The translations under genes and the position numbers were made by a program. 29,061 nucleotides of DNA from positions 1-29,061 of IMG/VR virus record IMGVR_UViG_3300032011_000082, one strand, 5' to 3'. Origin of the DNA: a virus. This document shows positions 3,001-29,061 of the stretch, piece by piece; positions within the stretch are counted from its first letter, which is position 1; each line of letters starts with the position of its first letter. The notes under the pieces were generated by a model. It was not told where the DNA came from and made no database searches. It saw nothing but the letters and a program-made list of their open reading frames with translations.

Positions 3001-6000
3001 TGCGCTCCATGCCGCGTAAAGCGATGTTGCGACTAATCCACCGGATAAAGGAGGCGCTATCCCGAACGGTAAATTATCTAAAGCCGGTGTGATATGGTCG
3101 CCTACAAATCGCGTATATTTTTCACCGCGCAAATGCTTTCTCCATTCGGTTATATCAACGGGATTATTATTGCTATCAATCAAAACAGGTGTAGCGGTAT
3201 TAGCATTATGTCCGTAGTATTTAGTGTTGATTTGTAATACTGTTTTAGGTAAATATCCTGCATCAAACATCATACCTGCATTTCTTTCTGTTTGTGTTAA
3301 ACCTCCCATATGCGCGTTTGTTGCAGACCCAACGATGCTTGCGACCGGCGCAGTTTGTGAACTTGATGCTTGAATGCCATAATCGGAGACTAAATCAACG
3401 CTGAATAAATGGTTGAGTGGAGTAACCTTTTTCTTTGAATTAAACGCTTTAATTTTAATAGCAGTTTCGGCGTTATCACCAAGCCATTCACTATATTTTC
3501 GACCATCCGGTGCATACATATCACTACAATCAAAATCTTCTCCGTCTTCGTTGTTAGGGTCAATTGTGAATGCATGAGCGACAGCCGCCGCTAATAGTTC
3601 ATCAGTAACAATTGTTGTTTGATTGAGATGAGGACTGATAATAACAGGCGCAGTTCCGTTTGATGAACTTGTAGGACCTCTCATGGCATTCGTGTTGAAA
3701 TGATTTACTTTCATATCATCAACACCAACACCTGTTAAACCAAAGAAACCATGTTCGCCATTATACGCATTATGGGTTCTGCCCGAATAATGTAATACTC
3801 GACCTACCTGTGCCGCCGACCCCGTATAATTTGTTGGACCCTGCGGAATAGCCAACCACAACAACCCGCTATCGGGGAAGCCTAACCATCCGAGAACATC
3901 AGCATCCGCACCTTCGGGTAAGTTATGCCAAATACCTGTATTTTGATTTCCGACACCCGATGCTGATTTGAAATAAATAGATTTAGGATGAGCGAATCCT
4001 GTTATTGATAATGATAATCCGGTAACTGTAACTTGCGCGTTTGTTCCTGTTAAACCAAGAATATCACCTACTGCATACCCGCTACCTACGGCGGTTACTG
4101 CTGATATACCGCTAACAGCCCCTCCGCCCCCAACAGTAACAGTGATTGATGCACCACTACCTTGATTTGCGCCGGAGATATTAAACAAGGTGAATGTTCC
4201 TGCCGTAACACCACTACCTGTTGTTGATACTGATAATTGACTTGTTGCGGCAATAGTGCTTGTGTTTTCAATGGTGTTATCACCAATACTCACGGCATAC
4301 CCGCTATTATGAGTTCTAATCCCACGCCACTTATTACCTCTCCATGAGTTCGCGCTATCTGCTGTTGAAGAAACTTGGCTTTCGACCGGAGTTCCCGAAC
4401 CTGCAACTCCCCACATGTTACTACCGATAGTGAATCCACCTTGCGCTACATCACGGTCGTCAATATAAATTACAATTTCTTCATCTATGGTTGATGGTAA
4501 TTTTGTATTTTTATGAGTGAATGATTCTCCGCAAGTCCTATACACCATACGAATGATGTGATTTTTTCCACGATGGTCTGTTATTTTGAATCCATACAAA
4601 GGCTCTTTTCCTATCGCATCATCTCGGCTTTCATCCGTAGGAACATAAGAATCATAAACGCTATATTTCGCATCCCCTGTTCCAACATGTTTTCCGTATA
4701 TTGTTTGAAATCTTGAAGTTGAATCACCATCTGCACCAAAGCCCCATTCTCCCGCATCGGGTGCGAATCCCGGCACACCCGAAGCAACAAGTCCGCCAAA
4801 ATTGATTCTGCCAACTGCGCGTGTTCCTGTCTGCAACCCTTCACGAACTGTCATTTTTGAATTGCCGTCTTCAAATGATTCCATATTAATGGTGTTAGAG
4901 TTTCGACCCGTTGTGCTTTCTGTGTTAGGTGTGCTACCTGTGTAATCATGAGTTGGTGCGACAGTGTTTGTATTGTATTGAACATCATAACCAAGATTTT
5001 GAGAATTGGTTACATCTCCTAATTCTTCATCAAGAGATGCATATTCGCGCAAAGTGGTTATTGGCGCAAAGGGTTTTCCGTTTTTATCAATAGGCATTGG
5101 TGCAGGATGCATATTCTCTCCTGCTATATCGGGTGCGGCGCAGTAGTAATTACGGAAACGACCACCATGACCTACTAAGTATTGAGGTCTGTATTCCGAT
5201 TGACCCTTGCTGTTATCCAACCATACGCAAAAGTTGCGTCCACTTGCACCCGGAACTGTGCTGTGAATCACAATACTATACCCTTCATTACCGTCAATAT
5301 CTTCAACCACTCGACCTATATGAGCGCGCATATAACCCATATGTGAACCGCGATTGTAAGAAGTGAATGCGCTATCATCCCAAAATGGTGAAGGGTCGTG
5401 AGTTCCACCTGTGGTGGCAAAGTCAGCATGATGGTGCGCAGAAGTTGGGTCGCTTGGTTCGTATGTGCTTTCCCCACTTGCTGATACTGCGCGACGATTA
5501 ATATCGAATCTTTCACCTTCGGCGGAGTATTGGTCGGATGGTCGTCTTTGACTACTTCTCCCGTTGATTGCTCCTGCTTGATTGATAAGACGCACTATTT
5601 CTTTAGCGGCGGCTTCTATATCTGTTACACCATCTTTGATACCAACTTCACCAAAATCAATAGTTAGTCGTCTTGCAAAGTCCATCGCATACCAATGAGG
5701 TAAATGTTGTAGCGCAGGTTCATAGTGTAAAGTAAGGTCTAAATTGCTACCACGCTTACCTTTCATGCATAAAAAGGCAGGTATTACGCGTGTTCCATCC
5801 GGTGTATCAAAGAATGTTGAATGGAAATCATAAGCGTCAGCCGCGCTACTTCTTATTTTTGCTGATTCGGTCTTTAACATATTTTCAGCATGTCTTGTAT
5901 TTGCCGCGCTAACAGAAATTGAACTTGGCTCAACTCGGTCATGTTCGGCTGATGTAATATCCGATGTTTTCACTACATGCTGTGTTTGGCGAGCAGGTCT

Positions 6001-9000
6001 TGAGAAATTACCTAAAGTGGATGTTTTATAACCATCATCCATAAGATACCATGATGCGTGAGCATAAGCACCTTCTATGAATACGGAATTGCCATGTTCG
6101 GCATGTATTGGATAACTAACGCTGTTGATTGTTTCTGTGTAAGTAGCAGAATTAGAAGTGAGTCTATTTTTATCTTGAGTAGCGAACCCTGCCGCTACAT
6201 CTAACCCGTTTATGATAGGTGTTTTTGCGCTTGTTTGGACTTGCATATGTAAATCATGGAATGCGATAAACTCACGGTCATGCGCTACATCATAGAGTAA
6301 TACCCGCGCATGTTGTTCTGTGCTAAGATAAGGGTCGAGATACGCCACAATTGGAGGATTGTTGGTATGTCCGAGTTCAGTCCAATTAAGAGAAATTGTT
6401 TTATTGACATGTTGAACAAAGTTGCGCGCAGTTTCAATACATGTATTACCAATTAAGAAGTTCTCAAGAGGTAATGTATCTCGCGCTTCGATACCTAAAT
6501 TACCCTTACCTCCATTGAACTCATTCCATACTTCATATTCATTGAGAACGCCGCGTGATTTCGCAAATAATCCTTCAATAGCATGCGGGTTAGTATAATG
6601 CATATTCATCCAAACAGTATCACCATATCGCAATCCTCCCGGCGCGTATGGATGATTCCATGTTTTATTGACTGTGCCATCTGCAAGTTTGTAAGGAGCG
6701 ACTGTGAGTGATTCTATGGATTTAACGACCCACACATCGCCCGGACTTGTTGAACCGCTTGATGTTAGAATACTAATTTGATTAACATTGGCTGATGAGT
6801 CATAAGTAATGGTCCCTGTTACACCTGTAAGTTCATTTACAGCCTTGTAATGATAATTGGTGGGTAATTCACCTTTAGGTAAATCACCTTTGAAAGTTAC
6901 ATTATAAGGATTAGCACCACTAACATTTGATAAAACAGTCAATTTAGAACATCCGCTTTCAATTCGCGCAATGTGAGGATTAGAAAGTGGTCCTGCCTTG
7001 AACTCAACAGCACTCACATATTGACGCAACCCATAGTCGATATTACCTCCTTGAGTTTGCACATTTGCGCGGTCATAATAAAACGGACGACGATACTCTT
7101 GAGCCGAAGTTATAGTGTCGTGTGTTGTATCGGTATCGAGGGGTTTGAAAATCTTGTATGGTTGTTGACCGATTGTTAAAACTGAACCCTTTCGTATTGA
7201 GACGAAGAAGTTCGCACTGAAATTACCTTCTGTTAATAATAATCTAATTCTTTTATTAGTTCTATCTTCATACGGCGCTACATTACGCATAGCATAGTAG
7301 CACCATTCTCCATTATCGAGAATTATTTTTCTCATCCAATTTTCATAATTGCTACCACCATTCCGAACATTTCCACCTGCGCCTTCATCACTATCCGGTA
7401 TTCTTTCTATCCCTTCTGTAATGTTGAGTATCACGCTATATTTGCTCGCATCAACAGCACCCATCGAACCTGCAATAGCGCGAGTTGGTTCGTTATTATA
7501 CCATCTCTTGTAGTAAGACCCGAATACTGTTTTATCAATAGCAGGTGAACTTCTTGAACGACGACCGACAGGGCTTGGACTCCAAGTGTGTGCTGTCATT
7601 GTAGCATCAAGATGTATTTTCATACTATTGTCGGGTCCGGGGAATATATCTTCTTCTCTATTTTCAAAAAATTGATTAGGGAATAATGCTATTTCTGTGA
7701 GTGCGCGTGTTGAAGCATATTGTGTTCCTAACTGATAGTCGTGAGAAATTGTTCCTAACGATTGAAATAATCTATCATTGACTGTTGTTCCATCTTCACA
7801 TACACTTTGGCTGTCGAATAACGGGTCAAGAATCAATTGAGTCCCGACTCTTAATACATTCTCTGTAACGAAGTTTGCAAATGAATCATGCTCATTACCA
7901 TTAGCATGAACAAAACTACCCGATGATAACAAACCCGTAGCGGTATTAAATGTGAATGCTGTTCCTGTTCTTGAAATATATTCAGCATTAGCACCATTCA
8001 GCATATACACCCTACCCGTTGGAGGGAAACAAAATGTTCCCCAAGATGCAAGATTTGCTGAATTGTTGTTTAGAGGTTGAACTGTAACTGTTCCGGCTGT
8101 CGTATCGACAGCAATTACTTCAACTGTGCAATCCCTACGCGTGTTCCAACCTACGCGTGAAAGAGGTGAAGGGTCCCACGATGGCTTTGTATTAATAGCA
8201 CCTTGTCCTGCACCACCAAGAGTAACTGATACAACAGGCGCTCCCGGTTGTATCTCTTTAACGATGTGGGAATCGGGAGAGCCGTCGCCTGTGAATGTTA
8301 CTGATTGGTCGGAAATATCATCCATTAAACCGCGCGCTCGTAAAATGAGTTCTCTTGAGCCTTTATTATCTGCAACTTGAAATGAATTGATTCTGCCTTG
8401 ACCTTGAATATATTCAATCGTAGCAAAAGTATGGTCTGCTGAATTATCTTTAGTGCCTACAACTCTCGATAGTTGCATAGTTCTGTTTTTGCGCGAAGGT
8501 TGAACTATGACATGGTGATAACTGCCTTCGATGTAATTGTCAATAATATCAAACATTTCAAATGCCGCGCCTTGTTGAGAAGCGTATTGTTCTGTAACTT
8601 GATGAGAAATAGTTGTGCCTCCTGTTGGTGGGGCGTTTTCGGGTTTTGAAATAGGACTAAGAATCAATTTATTATACACAGAAGAGTGTTTTATTTCTTC
8701 ATTTGAACCATCAATAGCGAGAGGAATGGTATTTGGTAAATCTGTTGCAAGAGTAGGAGTGTAGTTTGAAGGTATTCGAGATTCATTCAAACTGTATTCT
8801 TTTTGAGAACCTCCTGTATTATCACCAACTAATCTATGAGCAATCATAATAGTTGAAGATTCGCCAACTGCTTCGGATGTTAATGTTACAATTCCTCCTG
8901 CCGCGTGTATAAGAGGGTTAGAAGCATTAGCGATATGATGAGCAACGGTGTTACCATTTAGAATTGTATTCGCGCTTGGGACTGTCTTCTCCACTAACAA

Positions 9001-10863
9001 ACAAGGATTACTTACGCCCATTTTGTTTCCAATCAAATCTATGGCTTTGTAGTGTATTTCAACATACGGACAAGATGTGATTGTTGATACTTGCATAATT
9101 GCAACGCGCGAAACATCTTCGGGTATCATATGAAGTGTATGAGCAGGGTCGCCCGCTTCAACATCGTTAAATCCATGACCCTTCAATAAAAATGGTCTAA
9201 TGTCGTCAACACCTATTCCGATAACTCCGTCTTGGGTGCTATCAATTGAAGTCATACCATTACGCACAACATCTGTTACCGTAGCGCTTGTTGTTACTGA
9301 ATGTATAGCACCATAAAGGGCTGTGTTAGTCAATGATATTTTTGAATTGATAGGTAATTGGTCTTTAATTCCTAAATTAGCGGCAGGGAAATGAACTCTA
9401 ATGTTATCAGCAAGACCGTCAATGGTGCGTATAATAGTGTGTTCCGATGAAGGTGGTAACATTCTTAGATAATGATGTCCTTCGCTATAATTGTAAAAAT
9501 GACGACCGTTATGACCTCTTTTTAATTTATCATCAATAGTCCAATTAGCCGAAGAAACCGTAAATGGATTTCCACTTTCATTTACAGAACACTGTCGAGA
9601 ATAGATGAAACCATGAAAATCATTCCCGCTTTCATCAATCACCATTGCACCTGTTCTATCAATTGCTTGACTCGCCATACCTGCCATTTGATGCGGTTTT
9701 CCTGTTTGGCTATCAATTAATAAATCGGAACGAATAAGAACCATTGTGCTATCATGTGCTAAATGTTTTGTTGAATCGTAAGCAGTTCTTGCATGTAGCA
9801 CACCTCGCGCACCATATGTTGCATCAGTATCAAAATCAAGATGAATACTGTTAACGATAATAGTTCCTGCGGCGTTAAGGCTAACTAAACGCACCCTTTC
9901 GGGCGGTTTGCTATTTGGTAAGCGACTCATAACATCTGTCCCTGTTGGATTAATCAAAAGATTCCAAGCGCAATGAGCGATGCTAACTACTTGCTTACCG
10001 CCCGGATGTCCGGTGTTTATAGCGCGATAATTACCAAGAGATTCGGGAGTGTAAGTTCCTGTAAATATATCATCCTTTCCGCTTATCAATCGGTAAAGAG
10101 TTTGCACTTGTGTAGCGTCAAGAGTAATAGTAGTTGAGTTCGCGCTAAGAGCGCTTTTGATATGAAATATCTCCGAATCAACTTCAATAGGTTCTTCAAA
10201 TCTCCATATACCTATCGTTCCCGATTCTTTAGTAACAGGTAAAGGTCGTAAATCGGCTGTCGGAACACCCTTTTTCCAATGAATGCTTTCGATATAACCT
10301 CTATATTCACCACCTTTACCACCGATGTAAAAGTCTTGAGTATTGATGCCGATAGAGTATTTTTTATTCAATTTTTCATATGCTATAAGTTCACCATTGA
10401 TGTATAACTTTAATTGATTTTCACTAAATGCTCCGATAATATGGTATATTTCACGCTGTTCTGTATTCAAACCTACATTATTAGATATGAAAGAATCTGC
10501 ATTTGTGGGATAATTGTGTGCGCTTTTGACTGAAAATGATACTCCTTCTTGAGTATGAATTGTAAAAATAGCGGGCGCGGGCGCTCCAACACTACCCATT
10601 CTTAATTCAAACACTTCATCCTTACTTGCTATAATACCACCACAATCGGGAGAAATCCATGCTTCTAAAGAGAACTTACCAAGTGATTGCATTGAAGTTT
10701 TCATTTGTCTATGATTGCTCCCATCTTGAAGGACATGAGAAGATGTGCGCGCACCATCTGTTAGTTTGTGTCCTGTATGGATAAATCCACCTTGAGGGCA
10801 TACAACGCTATCATTAACTCCGTTGAAAAACAACGCGCTACTTGATGCACCAAATACTGCCAT
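1..10863 (-). CDS. Giant tail tip / fibre protein with N-terminal LamG-like domain (3' end outside window)
   Basis: The frame runs from ATG at 10863 to base 1 (3621 codons) with no in-frame stop that I could find, and continues past the left edge. It starts one base after the distal tail-like gene. Residues about 55-225 look like a LamG/concanavalin-type jelly roll: LGKFSLEAWI, then LKLYINGELI, then FYIGGKGGEYRGYIESIHW, then GIWRFEE. This fold commonly binds carbohydrates or proteins. Glycine-rich GxGY repeats occupy about residues 2191-2282 and 2706-2940. The remainder is rich in Ser, Thr, Gly, Asn and aromatic residues, with no signal peptide or membrane segment seen. Its position after tape measure and distal tail genes is that of the tail hub, tip or fibre. 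That it is a virion surface and host-recognition protein is inference; I recognise no enzymatic domain. Confidence 0.85.
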   Translation of the reverse strand, partial: MAVFGASSSALFFNGVNDSVVCPQGGFIHTGHKLTDGARTSSHVLQDGSNHRQMKTSMQSLGKFSLEAWISPDCGGIIASKDEVFELRMGSVGAPAPAIFTIHTQEGVSFSVKSAHNYPTNADSFISNNVGLNTEQREIYHIIGAFSENQLKLYINGELIAYEKLNKKYSIGINTQDFYIGGKGGEYRGYIESIHWKKGVPTADLRPLPVTKESGTIGIWRFEEPIEVDSEIFHIKSALSANSTTITLDATQVQTLYRLISGKDDIFTGTYTPESLGNYRAINTGHPGGKQVVSIAHCAWNLLINPTGTDVMSRLPNSKPPERVRLVSLNAAGTIIVNSIHLDFDTDATYGARGVLHARTAYDSTKHLAHDSTMVLIRSDLLIDSQTGKPHQMAGMASQAIDRTGAMVIDESGNDFHGFIYSRQCSVNESGNPFTVSSANWTIDDKLKRGHNGRHFYNYSEGHHYLRMLPPSSEHTIIRTIDGLADNIRVHFPAANLGIKDQLPINSKISLTNTALYGAIHSVTTSATVTDVVRNGMTSIDSTQDGVIGIGVDDIRPFLLKGHGFNDVEAGDPAHTLHMIPEDVSRVAIMQVSTITSCPYVEIHYKAIDLIGNKMGVSNPCLLVEKTVPSANTILNGNTVAHHIANASNPLIHAAGGIVTLTSEAVGESSTIMIAHRLVGDNTGGSQKEYSLNESRIPSNYTPTLATDLPNTIPLAIDGSNEEIKHSSVYNKLILSPISKPENAPPTGGTTISHQVTEQYASQQGAAFEMFDIIDNYIEGSYHHVIVQPSRKNRTMQLSRVVGTKDNSADHTFATIEYIQGQGRINSFQVADNKGSRELILRARGLMDDISDQSVTFTGDGSPDSHIVKEIQPGAPVVSVTLGGAGQGAINTKPSWDPSPLSRVGWNTRRDCTVEVIAVDTTAGTVTVQPLNNNSANLASWGTFCFPPTGRVYMLNGANAEYISRTGTAFTFNTATGLLSSGSFVHANGNEHDSFANFVTENVLRVGTQLILDPLFDSQSVCEDGTTVNDRLFQSLGTISHDYQLGTQYASTRALTEIALFPNQFFENREEDIFPGPDNSMKIHLDATMTAHTWSPSPVGRRSRSSPAIDKTVFGSYYKRWYNNEPTRAIAGSMGAVDASKYSVILNITEGIERIPDSDEGAGGNVRNGGSNYENWMRKIILDNGEWCYYAMRNVAPYEDRTNKRIRLLLTEGNFSANFFVSIRKGSVLTIGQQPYKIFKPLDTDTTHDTITSAQEYRRPFYYDRANVQTQGGNIDYGLRQYVSAVEFKAGPLSNPHIARIESGCSKLTVLSNVSGANPYNVTFKGDLPKGELPTNYHYKAVNELTGVTGTITYDSSANVNQISILTSSGSTSPGDVWVVKSIESLTVAPYKLADGTVNKTWNHPYAPGGLRYGDTVWMNMHYTNPHAIEGLFAKSRGVLNEYEVWNEFNGGKGNLGIEARDTLPLENFLIGNTCIETARNFVQHVNKTISLNWTELGHTNNPPIVAYLDPYLSTEQHARVLLYDVAHDREFIAFHDLHMQVQTSAKTPIINGLDVAAGFATQDKNRLTSNSATYTETINSVSYPIHAEHGNSVFIEGAYAHASWYLMDDGYKTSTLGNFSRPARQTQHVVKTSDITSAEHDRVEPSSISVSAANTRHAENMLKTESAKIRSSAADAYDFHSTFFDTPDGTRVIPAFLCMKGKRGSNLDLTLHYEPALQHLPHWYAMDFARRLTIDFGEVGIKDGVTDIEAAAKEIVRLINQAGAINGRSSQRRPSDQYSAEGERFDINRRAVSASGESTYEPSDPTSAHHHADFATTGGTHDPSPFWDDSAFTSYNRGSHMGYMRAHIGRVVEDIDGNEGYSIVIHSTVPGASGRNFCVWLDNSKGQSEYRPQYLVGHGGRFRNYYCAAPDIAGENMHPAPMPIDKNGKPFAPITTLREYASLDEELGDVTNSQNLGYDVQYNTNTVAPTHDYTGSTPNTESTTGRNSNTINMESFEDGNSKMTVREGLQTGTRAVGRINFGGLVASGVPGFAPDAGEWGFGADGDSTSRFQTIYGKHVGTGDAKYSVYDSYVPTDESRDDAIGKEPLYGFKITDHRGKNHIIRMVYRTCGESFTHKNTKLPSTIDEEIVIYIDDRDVAQGGFTIGSNMWGVAGSGTPVESQVSSTADSANSWRGNKWRGIRTHNSGYAVSIGDNTIENTSTIAATSQLSVSTTGSGVTAGTFTLFNISGANQGSGASITVTVGGGGAVSGISAVTAVGSGYAVGDILGLTGTNAQVTVTGLSLSITGFAHPKSIYFKSASGVGNQNTGIWHNLPEGADADVLGWLGFPDSGLLWLAIPQGPTNYTGSAAQVGRVLHYSGRTHNAYNGEHGFFGLTGVGVDDMKVNHFNTNAMRGPTSSSNGTAPVIISPHLNQTTIVTDELLAAAVAHAFTIDPNNEDGEDFDCSDMYAPDGRKYSEWLGDNAETAIKIKAFNSKKKVTPLNHLFSVDLVSDYGIQASSSQTAPVASIVGSATNAHMGGLTQTERNAGMMFDAGYLPKTVLQINTKYYGHNANTATPVLIDSNNNPVDITEWRKHLRGEKYTRFVGDHITPALDNLPFGIAPPLSGGLVATSLYAAWSAGTGYITEVEYGLENISGSGTAAGVTMAKRGSSGTTTFGGPGNNPFVGIDEVRNIGHSYAVGNNAWVYNYELSVFGSVNLIGSKPAGLLELTQGYGYTVGNHATTGGSGSGAVVKITAIKNGALGSNTINNAGTGYVVGETLTQSATTGSGIEAALIVGSVGGGGSGDITAYRITNTGSGHASSDVISFTGGSGSNFKITAVIIRDGVIESLDETPVSAGNGYSAGQTLTISGGTNGEVRINEVSTGTGYDSSVTYSLAGGSGSLAQVQVNTDGDGGITSVAEIMHWGANYYANGETLIVSGGGNNANLTVSRTNNARIVIQEITGYARTFIDDETVIPRQRIRCKNGWVGQTYRAGPLGREYAWTKRYGAVTSDNYTTTTAATDTFGGSDDLSWVEPKRLYYVDESILVYPVPDCFLMKTEDGSENWTEPLQGKHPKGIKSTDMTIYSQEFITDDHAQFSGLRLSGNTLGEPITYFRGAQDSVDHSVPLYFGGGFSGVTMDVNDGARVDYTSHNEHPYASGPTGCAGMQDIGEKMGSYALLDSAAMFAMFPGTPLCDQMHGTTVPPFANQDAILATDMDGNANNHTGVGATYTNVKVVKPSPIILRFAHPYARYADSDNSVAYVIFGPGQAAPKHWKGESQAMNTSIEPSGKWTVAAKHYAVLNGSTSVTFTAHTDTGHLLPNELHNGTLDSAANQLLPPTDAYGANNIYPGKAFRHWETPLGFANSNYNQTSAAHSRNISNHFGSPTSVNSAGPKTAHPFSHYKAIRRYPSPLTYAPEKLNFMIFQLDGGYSPGGSWFDNTIRKNPPHPTTSATVAASQTATWHSTTLTTGLNATMFRVGAAVATGYDTNADTTPPLDTFVIDATRCQNSEELGAIVAAAINTWPGPANLKAIGGSFLPSFQDAQRQDRYAWVELNRGVLPGSDPLDSYDDTNGLVTLTSNMPATLPVNGWIRLSNGTNAFYGYYSNRSDNTFILGANYRSGANKLEDPTVATGASSVV
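2045..2745 (-). repeat. Glycine-rich GxGY repeat block in the giant tail protein
   Basis: Around residues 2706-2940 of the giant protein, units of roughly 40-50 residues recur, each with a GxGY-type turn (GYGYTVG, GTGYVVG, GNGYSAG, GTGYDSS), a short strand, a TGGSGSG-like loop and then a V-x-I-x-[ND]-G segment. This looks like a repetitive beta structure such as a fibre shaft or a string of small beta domains. The DNA has diverged, so these are protein-level repeats. Confidence 0.75.
4020..4290 (-). repeat. Second GxGY repeat block in the giant tail protein
   Basis: About residues 2191-2282 contain one to two units of the same type (GSGVTAGTF, then a serine/glycine loop, then GSGYAVGDILGLTG). 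The block lies about 420 residues N-terminal to the main repeat array of the same protein. Confidence 0.65.
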
Positions 10864-10864
10864 A

Positions 10865-12064
10865 TCAAAGCCCCACAATCATATCAATCGGTTGGAATGT
10901 AACACTACCTTCGTATATGTTATTTCCTGCGTCATATCCAAAGTTCATTCCTACAACAGTTCCGCGTATTCCTGTGAACTTATCGGTAACATTGAAATCA
11001 GTTCCGAACTCATTGTAATTTCCAATACTGCCTTGCTCTTCAATAGAACGCGCACCTGTAACAATTAACAAGTTGCGCGTAACATAACCATCGTTAGAAG
11101 TTGTATTGGATTTTTTTTGAACAAGAGAATTATAAGGGATTTGAATACCAACAATATAATCTCCCGACCTATCTGCAATTGAAAAAGAAGTATCAAGACC
11201 ATGCTCATCGCTTTCGTTATCCATCCCAACATCAATAAGATTACCCGACATACCGGCAAGATTCGCATTACCTATCGCCGCGATAAGGTCTTGGAGTTTA
11301 TCACCCGCGCTTTTACAGTTATGCAATGTGCCTCCACCAAACAATTCAAACTTTGGTTTAGTAAGAGTTCCTTTATCACTCCAAAAATCAGGTGTAGCGT
11401 TATTACCATCCGGTCCTAATTCAACTGATGTGATTGTTAATTTTGAACTACCCGTTGACGCAATAGAACCTGCACCTGCTGATATTGTTAGCGCATCTAA
11501 GATAGTATCACTTGTTGAACCTGTGCTTGTTAATTGAACATTAAATGAATCGTCTTGTGTAAAAGCGGCAACTACTCTCGCCGCAAGTTGTGCGCCTGTT
11601 GTTACAGACTGAATACCTACTGTCAGTATAGGCGACCCTGTGGCGTATGTATGGCTTGTTGTGTCTTTGTCAAACTTAATTGTGATAGGAGCGCGCAACC
11701 TGCTTTTGTTAGTGTATGCTGTTGCGAGTTCAAATGTTTTATCGTCTAAATCCTCTTTGGTTATAGAGCCACCATTACCCACCATAAAGTAGTCATTACC
11801 ACCACCGGATGTGTCAGCACTTAGACCGAAATCAATAGTGCAGAATGCGGCATCTTGTTGAAACGATGTTGCCGAGCAATCATCATCTCGCAATATACAG
11901 TCGATTTGAATATCAGTTTGAACTGCGTTTATGTCAATAGCCAATCGTTCTGCGAGAATCGGAATGGGTATTACCGGAATTGAACGAGATACGCTTAGCG
12001 TGTATGAAACAGCATCAAGTTCAATCACTTGGTCGTCTTGCCTAATCAATCTAATTCTTGACAT
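10865..12064 (-). CDS. Distal tail (Dit)-like protein
   Basis: 399 aa, ATG start overlapping the tape measure stop by one base (TAATG). The N-terminus (MSRIRLIRQDD, then RSIPVIPIPILAERL, then NAVQTDIQIDCIL) is a beta-rich start of the kind that forms a ring at the tail tube end. A long Thr/Ser/Gly-rich middle (about residues 65-290) and a beta C-terminus (FTGIRGTVVGMNFGYD, EGSVTFQPIDMI) follow. A gene directly after the tape measure normally encodes the distal tail or baseplate protein that joins the tube to the tip. The call rests on position and beta character rather than a diagnostic motif. It is longer than a minimal Dit, so the middle may be an inserted carbohydrate-binding or decorating domain. 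The giant tail gene follows after one base. Confidence 0.6.
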   Translation of the reverse strand: MSRIRLIRQDDQVIELDAVSYTLSVSRSIPVIPIPILAERLAIDINAVQTDIQIDCILRDDDCSATSFQQDAAFCTIDFGLSADTSGGGNDYFMVGNGGSITKEDLDDKTFELATAYTNKSRLRAPITIKFDKDTTSHTYATGSPILTVGIQSVTTGAQLAARVVAAFTQDDSFNVQLTSTGSTSDTILDALTISAGAGSIASTGSSKLTITSVELGPDGNNATPDFWSDKGTLTKPKFELFGGGTLHNCKSAGDKLQDLIAAIGNANLAGMSGNLIDVGMDNESDEHGLDTSFSIADRSGDYIVGIQIPYNSLVQKKSNTTSNDGYVTRNLLIVTGARSIEEQGSIGNYNEFGTDFNVTDKFTGIRGTVVGMNFGYDAGNNIYEGSVTFQPIDMIVGL

Positions 12065-16386: not shown

Positions 16387-18834
16387 TCACAATCCTAAAA
16401 ATGCATCGTGTGAAATAACGCGAACATGCTTCGGCATGATTGTCATTTCACTCTTGATTACACCCTTATCTTCGGGGATAGGCATAGGTGCTTCACTGAT
16501 GATATAATCATCAACAACGATGATTACTTGTTCTCGGTTGCTACCTGCACCTGCCTTTGTAAGAGTGAGTGTAATTGGTTCTGTATATCCATGACTACGG
16601 TTAGTTCTGTATTCATGCCATAGTAGCGGGTCGGAAACAATGATTGTCATTTTCATTTCGTATTCAACTTGCTTCTCGATTGTCAAGTTTGGATTGCGCG
16701 AACCGCCAAATGGAACTTGCTCAAGTGATTGTCCGAGAGAGTTTCTTTCTTCTTTATATGCAGACCCACGAACTGTTAGAATGTTTTCGATGTTGTTGTT
16801 TCCTGTAAGTGAGAAGTTTGTGATTTGCGCGAGATTGATACCGAAAGCACTAATTTGCCCGTTGTAAAAGAAGTAAGGTTTCTCGGTGTTTGGTGCAATA
16901 CCCGCTTTCTTTCGTTCCGCTTTGCCGTTAGCGATGTTCTCAAACATTCGATGAGTGCTGTATCTATCACCTTTGTTGGCAGGTGTGTCATCTTCAAGAC
17001 GACCTGTATCTGTGTAGCAGTATAGCGCATCAAAGTTAACTGATAGTTTAACTTCTGCATCCGCGTCTGCGGCAAGTGAAAAATCCTTTACTTTACAACC
17101 TCTCCAAATACGAGTTAGTTGTTTGTTGTCGGATGCTGAACCCGGCGGTGCTTCGCTACCTGTCGCGCTTGCATTGTAAGAGCCTGTATTGCGTGTTCGC
17201 ATACTTGTCTCAAGAGTAAAAGAAGGAACAGTAGCGCCTTGATAAATTAAACGAGACATACGGTGTTGGATTTCTCCATAAGAAGCCGTAGTGGTGTTGA
17301 AGTTAGGCGAACCACCTGTGTTATCATCTTCATAAGCACAAACCTTCTGTGTCATGTTTGCAATAGCGTGGTCGAAGGTAAATGGTTCATCAACATAGAT
17401 TCGCTTACCAACAGTATCATGATAAAGAACACGGCGAATCTCATTGCGTTCTGCGTTTTCCATGTCTGTGCCGAGTCCATCATTACCCCACTTCTTAGAA
17501 CCTGCGGCTACTGCTCGGTCTGTTGGGAACTCAACTGCTGTTCCATCAACGATAAGTAAGTATTCTCCCGCGATAGGTCCGCTTGTCATTGTTCCTGTAT
17601 ATCCAAAGTAAGTATCACCTGCGGCGATAGGTAGTTCAGTATATCCTCCCCCCGGTGTCGCTTTAACAGTTGATGGAACATCAACAACCTGCGCGCCGAG
17701 GGCATAGTATAACCAACGAGCGCTGTTCATCATCATTTCGATAGCGCCACCTTCATTCTTCATGCTTTGAGGTTCTTGAATGACAACATCACGACCAAGA
17801 CCAATAACATGGCTTCGACGGATTTCGACCTTTGTTTCCGGTAGTGATACCGTAGCGGCAAGTCCAACAAATTGGTCTGTAAGAACGGACTCATCGGATA
17901 ATTTCGCTGATGCGTTGTAAGTCATTCCTGTGTCCATTGTTGGTGTTCCGATTGTGTCAATGAGTATTTCGTCATTAGCACCCGATGCGCCATTTTCTTT
18001 CATCTTTGGAGTAACTGTGATTACATTTGCGCTATTGGCTACAATGGTGTATGTGTTACCTGTTGTAGCATAATCGTCAGCATCATAATTTGCGCTTGAG
18101 CCTCTTACGCGAAGTGTCGAACCAACAAGCATTCCCGCAGGATATTTGAGATTTTGATTTGCATCAAACATTCCTGCTTTTGCTTGGGTGAAAGTAATAT
18201 CTGTGCAATCGCTATTTGCACTATTGGTTGTTTTTGTCATTAACAAACCACCTGCTGTAAGAGTTGCTACGGTTGCCGTTCCGCCTGTTCCTGTTCCAAG
18301 AGTTAAAACATCGCCTACATTATATCCTGCACCACCGGCAGGAGCCGATGCTGTGAGAGCAGTAATAACACCGTTAGAAATAGTGGTTACTACAAACTTC
18401 AATCCACTACCGCTACCACCTGTCATTGTAATAACTTCATTCGCGGCATATCCACTACCACCTGCGGTCATAGTGTATGTTACAACAGCACCACCCGCTA
18501 CGGTATTGATTGTAGCAGTAAATCCTGTTCCGACACCACTTGATGATGCTTGTGTTACATTATCACTCCCTGCATAAGTTGCTCCTGCATCATCAACTGC
18601 TGATGTTATAACAACACCGTTTGCTATTGAGGCGATAGCAACTGTTGCGTTACCATCACCTGCGCCGCCGGTTGTAGCGACGGTCGCTACTGAATAACCC
18701 GAACCTGCACTTGTGGGGGAAGTGGTTAGCGTCGCTACTGCACCTGCTCCAAACGCACCATGCTTAAGCGCTACTCCGCATTCATGTCCGAATGTTACTT
18801 CTGCTAAATCACCTTTATACACTGTCGATACCAT
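16387..18834 (-). CDS. Major tail tube protein with inserted GxGY repeats
   Basis: 815 aa, ATG preceded by AGAGGA. The N-terminus (MVSTVYKGDLAEVTFGHE), the segment VSLPETKVEIRRSHVIGLGR followed by ARWLYYALG, and the C-terminal half (ITNFSLTGNNNIENILTVRG, TMTIMPKH-like strands ending EMTIMPKHVRVISHDAFLGL) read as a beta-barrel tube protein with a central elaboration. About residues 29-205 are an insertion of glycine-rich repeats (GSGYSVA, GSGYAAN, GAGYNVG), separating the first strand from the core. The gene follows the tail terminator and precedes the chaperone/tape measure group, the normal place of the tube gene. It is much longer than usual tube subunits, so the extra parts would decorate the outside of the tail. 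Its identity as tube rather than another tail structural protein is inferred. Confidence 0.7.
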   Translation of the reverse strand: MVSTVYKGDLAEVTFGHECGVALKHGAFGAGAVATLTTSPTSAGSGYSVATVATTGGAGDGNATVAIASIANGVVITSAVDDAGATYAGSDNVTQASSSGVGTGFTATINTVAGGAVVTYTMTAGGSGYAANEVITMTGGSGSGLKFVVTTISNGVITALTASAPAGGAGYNVGDVLTLGTGTGGTATVATLTAGGLLMTKTTNSANSDCTDITFTQAKAGMFDANQNLKYPAGMLVGSTLRVRGSSANYDADDYATTGNTYTIVANSANVITVTPKMKENGASGANDEILIDTIGTPTMDTGMTYNASAKLSDESVLTDQFVGLAATVSLPETKVEIRRSHVIGLGRDVVIQEPQSMKNEGGAIEMMMNSARWLYYALGAQVVDVPSTVKATPGGGYTELPIAAGDTYFGYTGTMTSGPIAGEYLLIVDGTAVEFPTDRAVAAGSKKWGNDGLGTDMENAERNEIRRVLYHDTVGKRIYVDEPFTFDHAIANMTQKVCAYEDDNTGGSPNFNTTTASYGEIQHRMSRLIYQGATVPSFTLETSMRTRNTGSYNASATGSEAPPGSASDNKQLTRIWRGCKVKDFSLAADADAEVKLSVNFDALYCYTDTGRLEDDTPANKGDRYSTHRMFENIANGKAERKKAGIAPNTEKPYFFYNGQISAFGINLAQITNFSLTGNNNIENILTVRGSAYKEERNSLGQSLEQVPFGGSRNPNLTIEKQVEYEMKMTIIVSDPLLWHEYRTNRSHGYTEPITLTLTKAGAGSNREQVIIVVDDYIISEAPMPIPEDKGVIKSEMTIMPKHVRVISHDAFLGL
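18220..18750 (-). repeat. GxGY repeat insertion in the tail tube protein
   Basis: Residues about 29-205 contain three to four units with the pattern GxGY, short strand, [TG]GGxGSG, V-x-x-I-x-NGV[IV]T. They match in kind the repeats of the giant tail protein encoded at 2045-2745 and 4020-4290. Confidence 0.75.
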
Positions 18835-22903: not shown

Positions 22904-24061
22904 TCATTGTAGGTCGCGAATTGAACCGCTTGCACCAAAGAAACTACCCCATAGTTCACCCATAGTTCGGTAAAGTCCTTCTTGGCCGAGCCTGTTAATC
23001 GCGAATGGGTCGCCGGTTTCGATACCGGATTCAAAGTATTGTGTTGGAATTGCAGTTTGGAACCACAAGTAATCCGTGTCAAGGTAATAGATACGAGACA
23101 GTGTGTTTGCACCTTCATCCGGCATATCCTTTGTTGGGATAATTGGAACGCCATTGTAAGTCGCTACAATAAATCCTGCTTCAATACCCGGAACACCCTT
23201 CACACCGGAGTATGTAGGGGTGATTCTCTTAGAATCCATGAACCTTTGTTGAGATTGCAATAGTTGTTGAGCGCGCATAAGCGTATCATATCCTGTTAGC
23301 ATAACCTTTGGATTACCACCGCGAGTCCAAATCTGTTGGAATAATCCATCAAGTTGGTTTAGTGATAGGTTACGATTAGTCGCACTTGTTGAAGCATCGC
23401 CACCAACATCGACTTCTGCGCTATGGAAATCCTTGCTACCGTCGCGAGTAATTGAATACATATCGTGGTCGGTTAGAACATTGACTGAACCTTGTGTAGT
23501 GGTTTGCACAGCAGGGTCGGATGTTAGACGGTCAAGGGATTCAAAGTTGTTACCCGCAGGGGTGCTAACATCAACAAGAAGCATCTTGTTAACCATTTCA
23601 GCGTGATGCTTACCCATTTCTTCTTTGAGAACTTGGCGAACATCTCCAAGACCATCATCCTTGTCGGACAAGAACATGCTCACTTCGGATAAGTCAAAAG
23701 TGTGCGCAATAGTCTTTGGTTTAGCCGCTACATGCAGGAACTCCGGTCTTTTGGTTTCCGGTAGTGTTCCGTTTTCTGCAATACCGCCGGTAACTCCGCT
23801 TTCAGCGCGCTCGGTTAGAATACGCCATCCGCTTCTTTCCCACGGCTTCTTAGGAAGAATTGAAAACGCGTTAAACTCTTGGTTTAACTGCGACCAAACC
23901 TTTCGACCATATACTGCTTGATAGGTTCCCGCAGTAGTTGACATCATAGGACTGTCTGCTTTCAAAATGTCTCCGCTTGAGTAAGTGTAGCCTGTTTGAG
24001 CCGCACCACCATAGTAGTATCTTTCCATGTCTTGAACTGTTCTTACATAATTTCGTGCCAT
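22904..24061 (-). CDS. Major capsid protein (HK97 fold)
   Basis: 385 aa from ATG 24061 (MARNYVRTVQDMERYYYGG), which has GAGGGGAGAG upstream and lies five bases after the protease stop. The longer frame reaching 24115 overlaps the protease end and is not needed. Features of the HK97-fold capsid subunit include an N-arm (VWSQLNQEFNAFSILPKKPW), a long spine-helix region (VRQVLKEEMGKHHAEMVNKM), and an A-domain-like end (SRIYYLDTDYLWFQTAIPTQ, then GLYRTMGELWGSF). It directly follows the protease-scaffold gene, as in HK97-type modules. It would form the icosahedral shell. No separate delta domain is seen, so the scaffold function probably lies in the protease C-terminus. Confidence 0.85.
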   Translation of the reverse strand: MARNYVRTVQDMERYYYGGAAQTGYTYSSGDILKADSPMMSTTAGTYQAVYGRKVWSQLNQEFNAFSILPKKPWERSGWRILTERAESGVTGGIAENGTLPETKRPEFLHVAAKPKTIAHTFDLSEVSMFLSDKDDGLGDVRQVLKEEMGKHHAEMVNKMLLVDVSTPAGNNFESLDRLTSDPAVQTTTQGSVNVLTDHDMYSITRDGSKDFHSAEVDVGGDASTSATNRNLSLNQLDGLFQQIWTRGGNPKVMLTGYDTLMRAQQLLQSQQRFMDSKRITPTYSGVKGVPGIEAGFIVATYNGVPIIPTKDMPDEGANTLSRIYYLDTDYLWFQTAIPTQYFESGIETGDPFAINRLGQEGLYRTMGELWGSFFGASGSIRDLQ

Positions 24062-24066
24062 ATTAT

Positions 24067-25494
24067 TCACTCTCCCCTCAATGCTTTGTTGGCTATGCGG
24101 TGAACATCGTCCCACGACATATTAGCCATTTCCGTAGTATCGGGAATTGTAACTGATGTGGACGAAACACTCTTAGTGAGTGTTTCTCCACTACCGGATG
24201 AAACGCGGCTGATGCGGTCATCAAGTGCAACAACAGCCTTTTGTAATTCAAGAAGAGGTTTGCGGGAGTCAAACTTTGCTCGCGCTTTCTCATTCTTTGC
24301 AATTCGCTGTTCTTTAGATAGGCGGTCTGCGAAGTAATCTCCGAGAGAGCCTTTGAATTGTTGTTCGACTGATGCCGCCTTATACACTTCGTAAGCGGCT
24401 TCAATATCGGATTGAGAAACATTTTCGGGCATGATAAAATCTGCCTTAATTACATTCTTATTACCGCTTGGAGCGCTACCCCAATTTTGCTTAGGTCGCT
24501 TTGAGGACTCGCCTTCACCTGCTCCTTCAAGAGAACCTTGTCCTCTATGGTCGTAGCCGGATTGTCCGGGTCCATATCCTTTATTCACGCTATCGAAATG
24601 TGCGCGAGCATCTGCAATATCATGTCCGTTGGACTTTGCAGTTCGCTCAAGCCAATTAAGATAGTCCATTGTTATCATATCATCTGCTTTATTTGTCATG
24701 TCATCACCATACATCATGTCTTCATCCTCGTCATCTTCATCTTCATCATCGTCTCCGAGTCCGAGGTCGAGTTTTGGTTTGTCCTTTTTAGGAGGGAAAG
24801 GCGCGTCGTCTCCGCCATCATCATCCATTGAAGGTGCATCATCACCCATTGGAAAACCTTTGTCGGAGTCTTCATCGTCTTTCTTCTTTTTATCATCGTC
24901 TTCTTCATCATCCAATTTCTTGGAGAGTCTTTCTAATACGCTTTGCAGTTCGCTCATTGGGTCAGTCATAGTATCACCTGTGTCTTCCTTGAGGATGCGA
25001 AATTGTGCTTCGGGGTTAATTCCCTTCTCACAAATCGTTACCTCATGGAGTTCCATACGACGAATCTCACGGTAATCACCGCGAGTAGCGTCGCTTTTGT
25101 TGACGCGCTCAAAGGCTTGACCGCCTATTGAGAACGACCGAAGGTTGCCCTTTCGGATTTCGGATGCAACTTCGCGAGCCTTTTCGATGTCGCCGCGTAG
25201 TTGAATAACAACAAACATGCCGGTATCATCCACTTCGGATTTCCAAACACGACCGTTGCTATCTGTGTAAGAAGGGATTACCGTTCCTACTTGAATGTTA
25301 GAGTGTGCAAGTTGCACATTGCGGAATGCTTCTGCTTTCATGAATCCGCCAAATGCGTCTTTCAAAGCGCTACGAGTAATAAGGTCGCCTTGCTTGTCAA
25401 CCATCTCGACAGAAGCATAGCCCGCTACAACCAAATCATCACCGAATCCCTTGAGAACAAGGGGTGAAGTGGGTGAAGGTGCGAGAATTGCCAT
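24067..25494 (-). CDS. Prohead protease fused to acidic scaffold-like domain
   Basis: 475 aa from ATG 25494 (MAILAPSPTSPLVLKG); a TTG four codons earlier is possible. Residues about 15-170 match HK97-type prohead proteases (S78/U35): VDKQGD (32-37), the catalytic candidates His64 in QLAHS, Ser122 in SFSIGG, and Glu151 in ELHEVTI. Residues about 185-270 are extremely acidic (long Asp/Glu runs with Lys patches). The C-terminal part is charged and helical (EAAYEVYKAASVEQQFKG, KAVVALDDRISRVSS). In this family the protease matures the procapsid and is itself removed. A C-terminal extension of this kind often acts as the internal scaffold, which is inferred here from length and place before the capsid gene. 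Confidence 0.88.
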   Translation of the reverse strand: MAILAPSPTSPLVLKGFGDDLVVAGYASVEMVDKQGDLITRSALKDAFGGFMKAEAFRNVQLAHSNIQVGTVIPSYTDSNGRVWKSEVDDTGMFVVIQLRGDIEKAREVASEIRKGNLRSFSIGGQAFERVNKSDATRGDYREIRRMELHEVTICEKGINPEAQFRILKEDTGDTMTDPMSELQSVLERLSKKLDDEEDDDKKKKDDEDSDKGFPMGDDAPSMDDDGGDDAPFPPKKDKPKLDLGLGDDDEDEDDEDEDMMYGDDMTNKADDMITMDYLNWLERTAKSNGHDIADARAHFDSVNKGYGPGQSGYDHRGQGSLEGAGEGESSKRPKQNWGSAPSGNKNVIKADFIMPENVSQSDIEAAYEVYKAASVEQQFKGSLGDYFADRLSKEQRIAKNEKARAKFDSRKPLLELQKAVVALDDRISRVSSGSGETLTKSVSSTSVTIPDTTEMANMSWDDVHRIANKALRGE

Positions 25495-25520
25495 CGACCC
25501 GTTCAAGCGCTACAAGTATA

Positions 25521-28500
25521 TCAAACGCGCGGTTTAGTTATGGTGATATTCCCTTTGTTATCTGTGGTGGCTTCTTCGCCCGCAGTAGTGCGAATAACTT
25601 TTGATTTTTTATCAGTTGTAGCGCGCTTCTCTTTGTATTCGCGTGATGCAGGGTCAAAATCCGGTAGCGTGTCATCATTGATGTTTTCAGTTGGTCCTCG
25701 CGGGGATTCAACATCTGCACCTGCATAATCTATACCAAGACCCTCAACTCCTGTATGAGTAATCTTTTCTTTTGATATACGCTCTAACATTAATTCAGTC
25801 ATTTCAAGACCGCGTTTGATAATCTCTTCTTCTTCGGGCAGTATATGTTTGCGCTTCTTAGTATGACCTGCCGGAACTTCGGGTTTAACTTCTCGATTCT
25901 CTTTGTCTTTCTTAAGAAGTATAGTCGCTATTGGACTCCAATAAGGTCGCATATCTTCGGATAATTTGATGAAGTAATCTTCTCCATGACCCCATAGAGT
26001 CTTTTGAGGTTCAAGCATCCATCCACCTTCTTCTTCATCGACTTTGTAAATGACTTCATCATCAAGTGATGGGAATAGAATATGAATAGCGCCTTTATTC
26101 AATCTAACTTTATGAGGTATTTTAGAATCATTTGTCATCATACATAATGTTTCGACGCTATCTGCGGCTTGAGGATGTGCATCTCGGTCAACTCTTGCCG
26201 AGCGTATTTTGTAAGTTGGGTTTTCATCCCCTTGTGATGTTACACCTGTGCAGAAGACAGAAATATATTCCCCTTTATCATATCCTCTCGGCCCTTTAGC
26301 GCTACCAACATCCATGTAATGTTCTCCATTTAATTCAACCGAGCGCGCACCATAATGTTCGGGATGCATAATTGGACCAACACCAATTCTATAATTCATA
26401 CCTTTACGGTCAAGAATAATAACATCAACTTTCTTTTCTTTACTCAAAAGAATCCACTTAGGGTGTCGTATTTCACCCCTCATGTATGTAGCAGAAGCAT
26501 CTCTTAAGAGAATATCGCTTGGTGATTCTTCGCGTAATAAGTGAATTGCTTCTTCTAATCCCTCATCATCCGCGCGTTTTGTATTATATGGTTCGGGCAT
26601 TTTGATGTGTTCCGATGATTCAAAGTGTGCGCGTAAATGTCTTACTCGGTCTTTTGCGGGCATGTTATGCGTCTTCTCATCTGCGGCTTCAAGTAAATCA
26701 ATAAAATAGAGCATGTCTTCATTAATTACTGCGTGAACTACGAAGTCCTTATCATTCACTTTACCCATCTCATCATCTATATCATCGGTTAACTCGACCA
26801 ACTTCATGTCTGCATTATATGCTTTGACGCGCTTACCTTTCTTTTGAAGTATAATTGGTTCTCCTTGAGGAATATGCGACGCTATCCAATCGCCGCTAAA
26901 CCCGCGTAAGTGTTTCAAATCGCTATAATCAAAGATTCTATGCATTGATTTTACAGGAACGGGGCGACCATCTTTTTTGAAAAATAATGTATCATCTGTA
27001 AGAGAATCAAGTATTTCGCCATCCGACAGTAGCATTTGTTGACCCGACCCCATACCGGAAAAGACAGGAAAGTTACTATTAACGCTTTGCCCCGGAATGC
27101 CGGATGGTTGCATAGCGACAGGTGGGAATTGCGTATTATCTGCTGATGTATCATATGGTGGTAATTCGGGGTGGAAATCTCTAAGCGCGTAAGGGTCCAT
27201 ACTCCCTCTCATCTTCAATTCTCCTTGATGATAATCACCTTTATCATCGTGCAGAATGAGTCGATTTTGATTTATTGCATGTGTTGCTATTCTATGTGAT
27301 GGGCGAATAATATGACCTAATTTTCTATTTGCTAACGAGCATGTGTGAATAGCCGGTAATTGAACTTCATTAATACCTAAACCACCTGTCCCAACAGGTT
27401 CGGATTGTGTGTTGATTTTCCCCGCCGCGTTTTTTATTCCTTTAACATCACCTTTCAAACGCTCAATGAAGTTACCCATTCTATCTGTAAGATTTGAAAA
27501 TCCTTTATCACTCCCCTTACCCATTTTAGGTAACGGTGCTGTTTCGCGAGGAACCGCTTCGATAGCATTAGCGCTACCTTTAGAATGTCGGAGTAATGTA
27601 TGATACACTCCATTAAGCGCTTTTATTTCAGCATACATTGAATAATCCGGCTTAGTTCCCTCACCTTTTCTTCTTATTCCTGCACCACCACTCATTAAAG
27701 GAGTATCTTCGTCCAATCCTGCTTCATGATGATGCCCTCCTTTAGACGCTTTGTAATCATACACAGAACCGTAAAAATCACCATCATCGCGGCTTGTGCC
27801 GCGACCTTGACCGAAACCAACTAAAGATTGCGGAGGCATTATCCTCATTAGATTTTCACCACCTACTTCATTTTCTTTCCCTTCATCATCTTTGATTGTT
27901 CTTTTAGCGCTATGAGGTATATATCGAGCATGTAATACATCTGCAAAGTCTTGAGTTGTAGCGCCTTGTGGTAAGACTTTATTAATTTCATCAAAGATTT
28001 TATTAACCAATTCATTTTTTTCATGAGGTGGGTAATGCACTGAATCCAATTCACCATTAACATATTTTTGAAGCATATTCATGACTGATTTATCTTCACC
28101 TAATTCGATATTACGCTTGATATTACCTGCTTGGTAAGTTTGCCTCATGATTGGACTTGTAACATCTTTTGTTATTCTTTTAATTTCATCTTCGATAGCG
28201 TTATCGCTCATCCCCTTATCTTTGAAATGAGCCTGTAATATCTCCATTACAGGTTTTCCTGTTTCGCGCGAACAGTTAACTTTAGCATTTTGAATCCAAT
28301 TCTTTCTTTGTTCGGGATTAAGTGTTCGCATCCATGTTTCACATAAATGCGCGAGCATCTTTGTATCAGCCCACGCTTGATTAGCAAGTTTTGGTGTGTG
28401 AGTTTGAAACAATTCGGGGTTAGCCCATTTCAGTATAGGTTTCATAATTTGACTTGCCGCTACTGATTGCTCATGCATCATTTGTGCATCTTCTAAGTAT

Positions 28501-29061
28501 TTTTTACGAATCTCATGTTCTGTTATAGGAGGTAATTCTCCAACTTCATCAATAACATATTGTTTCTGTTGAGTTGCTAACATTTCAAAATTAACAGCGT
28601 TAACCGTTGAACCATCTCTATATGCTTCTCGCGCTAAATCGCGATATTTTTCTAAAGCGTCTTGATAATGCGATTGCGGGTCATAGGCGATGATGTATTG
28701 CTTTCCGTCCCCGTAATAACCTGTGAAGTTTGAATCTTGTTTAATACTGCGCTTCAACTTGTTTCTTTCACTTGGTCCTAATTCGCTAAACATCGAACCA
28801 TTGGACTCTTGATGAAATGATTTGCCGGTATCATCCGGTGCTGTTAATTGATGAACTAATTCTCTTCGGTCTGTGATATTATCTCTTAAAGTTGTAGGTA
28901 ATCGCAAAATGCCACCATCTTCATATTTTTTAATAGCCTCTTCATACTCGTCTTTATCATAGACCGCTATTTTCGCATCAAAATCCCCACCAAGCATTTC
29001 ATTTTGATATAGCGTTCCCGCGCCTTCACCCCTACCTAATGGGTCGCGATGCTTGCTTGTA
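25521..29061 (-). CDS. Very large head-region protein with degenerate DNA ligase-like module (5' end outside window)
   Basis: 1179 codons are visible. The frame is open past the ATG at 28997 to the right edge and encodes plausible protein there (RDPLGRGEGAGTLYQNEM), so 28997 is internal. Numbering from that ATG, residues 1-670 are helical and charged and I do not recognise them. Residues about 680-950 follow ATP-dependent DNA ligases: LRGFSGDWIASH at motif I, YFIDLLEA and DRVRHLR after motif III, ILLRDASATYMRGEIRHPKW at IV-V, VGPIMHPE and PTYKIRSARVDRDAHP in the OB fold. The motif I lysine position is Gly699 and the III and IV acids also appear lost, so catalysis is unlikely. The gene lies where the portal or minor head genes usually are, directly upstream of the protease. 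Function is unknown; an internal or DNA-end-binding head protein is possible. Confidence 0.75.
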   Translation of the reverse strand, partial: TSKHRDPLGRGEGAGTLYQNEMLGGDFDAKIAVYDKDEYEEAIKKYEDGGILRLPTTLRDNITDRRELVHQLTAPDDTGKSFHQESNGSMFSELGPSERNKLKRSIKQDSNFTGYYGDGKQYIIAYDPQSHYQDALEKYRDLAREAYRDGSTVNAVNFEMLATQQKQYVIDEVGELPPITEHEIRKKYLEDAQMMHEQSVAASQIMKPILKWANPELFQTHTPKLANQAWADTKMLAHLCETWMRTLNPEQRKNWIQNAKVNCSRETGKPVMEILQAHFKDKGMSDNAIEDEIKRITKDVTSPIMRQTYQAGNIKRNIELGEDKSVMNMLQKYVNGELDSVHYPPHEKNELVNKIFDEINKVLPQGATTQDFADVLHARYIPHSAKRTIKDDEGKENEVGGENLMRIMPPQSLVGFGQGRGTSRDDGDFYGSVYDYKASKGGHHHEAGLDEDTPLMSGGAGIRRKGEGTKPDYSMYAEIKALNGVYHTLLRHSKGSANAIEAVPRETAPLPKMGKGSDKGFSNLTDRMGNFIERLKGDVKGIKNAAGKINTQSEPVGTGGLGINEVQLPAIHTCSLANRKLGHIIRPSHRIATHAINQNRLILHDDKGDYHQGELKMRGSMDPYALRDFHPELPPYDTSADNTQFPPVAMQPSGIPGQSVNSNFPVFSGMGSGQQMLLSDGEILDSLTDDTLFFKKDGRPVPVKSMHRIFDYSDLKHLRGFSGDWIASHIPQGEPIILQKKGKRVKAYNADMKLVELTDDIDDEMGKVNDKDFVVHAVINEDMLYFIDLLEAADEKTHNMPAKDRVRHLRAHFESSEHIKMPEPYNTKRADDEGLEEAIHLLREESPSDILLRDASATYMRGEIRHPKWILLSKEKKVDVIILDRKGMNYRIGVGPIMHPEHYGARSVELNGEHYMDVGSAKGPRGYDKGEYISVFCTGVTSQGDENPTYKIRSARVDRDAHPQAADSVETLCMMTNDSKIPHKVRLNKGAIHILFPSLDDEVIYKVDEEEGGWMLEPQKTLWGHGEDYFIKLSEDMRPYWSPIATILLKKDKENREVKPEVPAGHTKKRKHILPEEEEIIKRGLEMTELMLERISKEKITHTGVEGLGIDYAGADVESPRGPTENINDDTLPDFDPASREYKEKRATTDKKSKVIRTTAGEEATTDNKGNITITKPRV

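Follow-up and report, generated by a model that had tools for sequence, protein, structure and literature searches.

The head module

The window, which is the whole stretch of DNA analysed here, is a virus record of 29,061 bases. Its minus strand carries the following genes of a head module:

22904-24115, minus strand: HK97-type major capsid protein (phrog_24667, 2.8e-52)
24067-25506, minus strand: prohead protease, with an acidic linker and a putatively scaffold-like C-terminal helical region (PF04586, 2.9e-9)
25521-28997, minus strand: 3' part of the giant head-module gene, an ORF of 1158 codons that is open upstream at the window edge

The giant gene is whole in contig L001, which is identical to the window over the gene, and its product there has 2079 amino acids. 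Across the family, this product is mostly about 1,800 to 2,350 amino acids long. Upstream of the giant gene in L001 are three small genes and a gene for a 616-aa protein, which is taken as the portal on account of its position and size. The family has a Caudoviricetes head module in which portal, S78 protease and HK97-type major capsid protein follow a fixed order. Specifically, the protease is directly downstream of the giant gene in all 258 testable loci (median gap of 15 nt), the major capsid protein is downstream in 207 of 207, and the portal is upstream in 213 of 215, these counts being drawn from redundant loci (about 100 distinct at 95% identity) and so not representing independent events. 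The sequence-only reading had described a dead ligase fold inside a giant structural-module gene next to the prohead protease, and that layout is general in the family. At locus L101, the ligase-like domain has an ORF of its own, solely through one in-frame stop that is probably a sequence error. On gene order alone, the giant protein is likely to be located in the virion.

The N-terminal 1,400 to 1,500 or so amino acids of the giant protein gave nothing convincing in searches of Pfam, PHROGs and PDB profiles with 32 relatives. Specifically, no MuF, ART, protease or similar effector domain was found in this part by profile search of the same number of relatives. At the other end, a tail of the form KEKIT.TGV.GLG...ESPRGPT.N...TLPDFDP (25521-25910, minus strand) closes the protein in nearly all relatives and may be a docking or cleavage segment.

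Other features of the structural genes may be mentioned here. The C-terminus of the protease (24067-25506, minus strand) is MSWDDVHRIANKALRGE. In the interval between the portal and the giant gene, a gene of about 115 amino acids (L004, 2500-2847; L002, 2540-2890) ends in MSW[DE]DIH.MANTA, which resembles this protease end, and the like ends possibly represent a common head-targeting or scaffold-binding signal. The tail tube protein of the window (16387-18834, minus strand; 815 aa) matches PF18906 over residues 324-790 with only about 235 profile positions, so the domain seems to be broken up by additional sequence. Beside the tail genes, a giant ORF of at least 3,626 amino acids (1-10878, minus strand) runs off the window end and has no Pfam match.

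A ligase fold at the C-terminus of the giant protein

Residues 663-938 of the window ORF (26184-27011, minus strand) have the nucleotidyltransferase (NTase) and OB folds of archaeal and eukaryotic ATP-dependent DNA ligases. The C-terminal part of the protein is divided as follows:

26442-26951, minus strand: ligase nucleotidyltransferase (adenylation) domain, catalytically dead, with approximate boundaries (PF01068, PDB profile, AlphaFold2 with Foldseek and VIA)
26184-26441, minus strand: OB-fold domain of the ligase unit (VIA alignment to 2cfm)
25911-26183, minus strand: third small conserved alpha/beta domain (AlphaFold2 model residues 277-367), scarcely within the VIA matches
25521-25910, minus strand: C-terminal tail with conserved KEKIT.TGV.GLG and ESPRGPT segments (family conservation)

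As a single query, the window protein had no ligase match by phmmer against PDB or by hmmscan against Pfam and PHROGs. Because single-sequence searches missed the likeness, a family profile was needed. Scans of IMG/VR matched 42, 76, 383 and 404 relatives, with at most 80 per scan taken further. More than 380 relatives are present in this collection. The A5 alignment and profile were made from 99 non-redundant domains. PF01068 matches 78 of these 99 (E<=0.01, best 2.4e-8), and several NCBIfam models of ATP-dependent ligases also match members of A5, including TIGR00574 at 4e-9. When the A5 profile was compared with PDB, the archaeal DNA ligase 4eq5 came out on top with an E-value of 9.9e-7.

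The predicted structure provides further evidence. Built on the A5 alignment, an AlphaFold model of the sequence in the window has a mean pLDDT of 88.2; a model on a shallow alignment reached a pLDDT of 59 and was left out of use. The best Foldseek match of the model is again 4eq5, the ligase of Thermococcus sibiricus (E 9.6e-14). In VIA-align, residues 5-303 of the model superpose on residues 180-561 of the Pyrococcus furiosus ligase 2cfm with a Z of 21.0 and an rmsd of 4.9 over 279 residues, and Z values against DNA ligases range from 17 to 21. The match to 2cfm covers the NTase and OB domains as one unit, the OB domain being directly C-terminal to the NTase. Thus, the ligase-like order of segments first noticed in this ORF is real, and structure prediction gave the ligase domains rather than an unrelated fold. 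The extent of 26100-26960 in the sequence-only reading is to be corrected: the NTase proper starts at about 26951, the OB domain ends at about 26184, and a third domain lies beyond it.

Compared with ATP-dependent DNA ligases (2cfm, 4eq5; PF01068, TIGR00574), the viral unit has the same order of NTase and OB domains. In contrast, no ligase DNA-binding domain was detected, and the viral domain forms the C-terminal end of a head-module protein of about 2,000 amino acids. The VIA matches start beyond the helical DNA-binding domain (2cfm residue 180), and the upstream part, compared by profiles alone, is without a profile match. Among viral structures, the top match of the model is BFVD entry A0A516LT18 (827 aa; Foldseek 4.9e-25, 19% identity), far above annotated ligases. 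In INPHARED phages, tblastn found no relatives, whether the query was the family consensus, a divergent member or the protein of the window, and a scan of genome contigs likewise found none.

Several observations point to the family being Magrovirales, tailed viruses of the marine group II archaea (Poseidoniales), which are abundant in the ocean. The longest relatives are 90-109 kb, and Cpn60_TCP1, the group II chaperonin model, matches in 8 of 14 related records, although this model also matches bacterial chaperonins and is not decisive alone. In addition, the ligase of a published group A magrovirus adjoins the protease.

The active site

The register of the motifs was taken from the profile alignment to 4eq5, where motif I of the ligase, EIKYDGARV, stands against S-x-W-P-E-G-E-R-V in the family. 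In the window, the positions are as follows:

26886-26903, minus strand: GFSGDW, conserved segment just upstream of motif I
26856-26879, minus strand: SHIPQGEP, motif I equivalent, with Ile at the Lys position
26724-26741, minus strand: VVHAVI, motif III equivalent, with Val for the metal-binding Glu
26691-26705, minus strand: FIDLL, motif IIIa, its Asp kept in 167 of 174 relatives
26499-26516, minus strand: DILLRD, motif IV equivalent, in which the Asp after the Lys position is invariant
26439-26489, minus strand: TYMRGEIRHPKW and motif V equivalent WILLSK, with GE.RHPKW invariant in 99 of 99

Active-site residues were counted in 174 unique relatives. In motif I (KxDGxR in ligases), every one of them has another residue (W, M, Y, I, F or L) in place of the Lys that accepts AMP, the nucleotide-binding Lys of the sequence-only reading. 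This register is secure because the motif I Gly is invariant (174/174) and the Arg is kept in 141. The reading had replaced the Lys with Gly: the loss itself holds throughout, but the residue in the window is Ile, and motif I had been set about 10 residues off. GFSGDW was considered as the dead motif I and rejected, since the profile alignment puts the motif at SHIPQGEP. A search for a conserved motif I Lys elsewhere found none, a Lys one residue upstream being present in only 30 of 99 sequences.

The metal-binding acids, suspected from the outset to be missing, are lost in motif III and not conserved in motif IV. At the Glu position of motif III, each of the 174 relatives has I, V or F, and the Glu position of motif IV is variable (D, E, K, G or other), with the Lys of this motif changed to Arg in 172. 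In motif V, the first Lys position holds L, M, V or I in 174 of 174 and the second R, S, K, Q or T. On inspection of the alignment, the family as a whole has not conserved the basic signature of motif VI. What is retained from ATP-dependent DNA ligases is the motif IIIa Asp, the motif I Gly, STY..G and the W before motif V. Unlike those enzymes, the viral domain lacks the catalytic Lys, the metal-binding Glu and the first Lys of motif V. Judged by these residues, the ligase-like domain is catalytically dead, its active site being lost in all 174 unique relatives.

Published annotations imply instead an active, if divergent, ATP-dependent ligase of the viral replisome, and such an enzyme is listed for magroviruses (PMC10768690, PMC12999244; as a DNA ligase in PMC10160649). 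An active ligase is nevertheless highly improbable, given that the motif I Lys, the motif III Glu and the first motif V Lys are absent from every relative and that the gene sits in the structural cluster and not in the replication cluster.

Conservation of the domain

Among 60 diverse full-length proteins, the ligase-like domain is the best-conserved stretch of the giant gene, with column conservation of about 0.4-0.75 compared with about 0.2 upstream. Closely related pairs are under purifying selection to match. Estimates of dN/dS for both regions could be had from six pairs: in five of them, the value is 0.05-0.06 in the domain and 0.13-0.20 in the remainder of the gene, and in the sixth (L009/L007) it is 0.13 and 0.16. 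Because its conservation is the strongest within the gene, the domain must have a job. Loss of catalysis would also fit a functionless relic of a gene fusion. However, a relic is refuted by the conservation of the domain, with the low dN/dS of most close pairs. The domain also occurs in each of the 16 tested records of 90-109 kb, which were picked for having it, and almost no credence is left for a relic. A domain that is dead yet tightly constrained is exapted.

The strongest constraint falls on the segments before motif I and around motifs IV and V, which flank the former nucleotide pocket. This placement, read from the alignment, suggests that a ligand or partner site is preserved there. 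Such a site might be a sensor of nucleotides or nucleic-acid caps, with a nucleotide-like ligand occupying the empty pocket. A precedent for a non-catalytic NTase fold that binds a nucleotide cap is the cap-binding domain of snurportin, a protein related to capping enzymes but itself without catalysis. The m3G-cap-binding domain of snurportin-1 (PF21974) has a weak but significant profile match to 11 of the 99 members (best 2.4e-6), and in both, an NTase-type fold without catalysis has been turned to binding. In contrast to the viral protein, snurportin-1 is a eukaryotic nuclear import factor without a virion context. The concentration of conservation around former motifs I, IV and V would suit a sensor, but common ancestry of the NTase fold could by itself explain the match to PF21974, and the charged pocket residues of ligases have largely become hydrophobic. 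Overall, a sensor of this kind is rather improbable.

Possible roles in the head

With catalysis gone, binding is the sole option remaining for the fold, and the question becomes what is bound. The sequence-only reading had proposed a part of the packaging or ejection machinery that binds DNA ends or nicks. On this view, the ligase core would still clasp duplex ends at the portal but no longer seal them. The giant gene does neighbour the portal, the OB domain is kept and aligns with the NTase as one unit on 2cfm, and the motif I Arg (in 141 of the 174) persists along with the invariant basic RHPKW loop. On the other hand, the best aligned ranges do not take in the helical DNA-binding domain, motif VI has not kept its basic residues across the family, and the domain is acidic, with a mean net charge of about -15. 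Because of this charge and because no ligase DNA-binding domain was detected, clamping of DNA ends is possible but not favoured, and it is regarded as unlikely.

In the main rival explanation, the giant protein is a host-modifying protein that travels in the head and enters the cell together with the DNA. The dead ligase would then bind a host factor, such as one at sites of replication or repair, or shield the incoming DNA. In other tailed viruses, large multidomain proteins whose genes lie with those of the virion are believed to be carried in the head and injected (PMC5512222), and the Dar proteins of phage P1 are packaged and injected (PMC12810830). A further parallel comes from HVTV-1 (Druskaviridae), a cultured haloarchaeal virus of a family described as close to magroviruses. 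Its interval between portal and protease encodes gp114, a MuF minor head protein, and gp115 (L217, 20623-24564), which combines a zeta-toxin kinase (PF06414, 3.3e-20) with an ADP-ribosyltransferase (PF03496, 1.4e-8). Like the magrovirus giant gene, this interval thus encodes a large multidomain product with enzyme-derived domains at the same place, and the presence of the kinase and ADP-ribosyltransferase domains there is in keeping with ejection. The occupants of this interval in HVTV-1 count equally in favour of a head-associated giant protein in magroviruses. The ligase-like domain itself has no match in HVTV-1. Both domains of gp115 are of kinds known in proteins injected with phage DNA.

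Against ejection, conservation in the protein is highest, not lowest, in the dead-ligase part, in contrast to typical arms-race domains, and profile searches found no effector domain in the N-terminal part. Moreover, published work describes few polyvalent proteins from archaea, where they are said to be rare (PMC5512222). Ejection is rated a minority possibility. The likeness to P1 DarA/Hdf and other head-internal proteins is an analogy of location only, namely in the head, and no sequence relation is claimed. DarA is cleaved by the prohead protease of P1 (PMC12810830).

The preferred explanation is a head-associated protein that holds a conserved partner, and it seems likely that the dead-ligase unit is an exapted, non-catalytic binding module of this giant protein. 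A complete catalytic core of an ATP-dependent DNA ligase, comprising NTase and OB domains without a detectable ligase DNA-binding domain, would have been captured by a giant late gene in the magrovirus ancestor. All catalytic residues would then have been lost while the fold was retained for binding. The giant protein would most likely be associated with the head, either internally or close to the portal, and would be assembled with the neighbouring prohead protease and possibly cut by it. Its C-terminal dead-ligase unit probably holds a partner at the conserved region of the former nucleotide pocket. Candidates for this partner are the packaged DNA, a protein of the head or portal, and a ligand resembling a nucleotide. 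Evolution is fast in the N-terminal 1,400 or so residues, whose role is probably lineage-specific.

The published magrovirus ligase

In the surface ocean, magroviruses reportedly rank among the most abundant viruses. Their ICTV profiles place an ATP-dependent DNA ligase among the replication proteins and conclude that there is little reliance on the host. The A5 domain occurs once per record in each of the 16 records of 90-109 kb, which were picked since a scan had shown the domain there. In these 16 records, no other ligase was found with PF01068 or TIGR00574, nor was an NAD-dependent ligase (PF01653) or RNA ligase (PF09414). Because the domain is the sole ligase-like sequence detected in these apparently near-complete genomes, the "ligase" of the published magrovirus replisome probably corresponds to the dead domain and not to an enzyme, if not throughout the Magrovirales then in most of the order. 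The sequence-only reading knew of no described case of such a layout, and none was found in the literature; likewise, no published account was found of the domain as inactive or as a virion part.

Overall, the balance tilts slightly towards a DNA ligase core having become an essential, non-catalytic part of the head or genome-delivery apparatus before the known magroviruses diverged, with the ligase credited to their replisome being non-existent. If the published ligase is the dead domain, magroviruses must borrow the ligase of their host. If true, this would clearly exemplify how a replication enzyme can be reused, stripped of catalysis, in a protein of the virion module.
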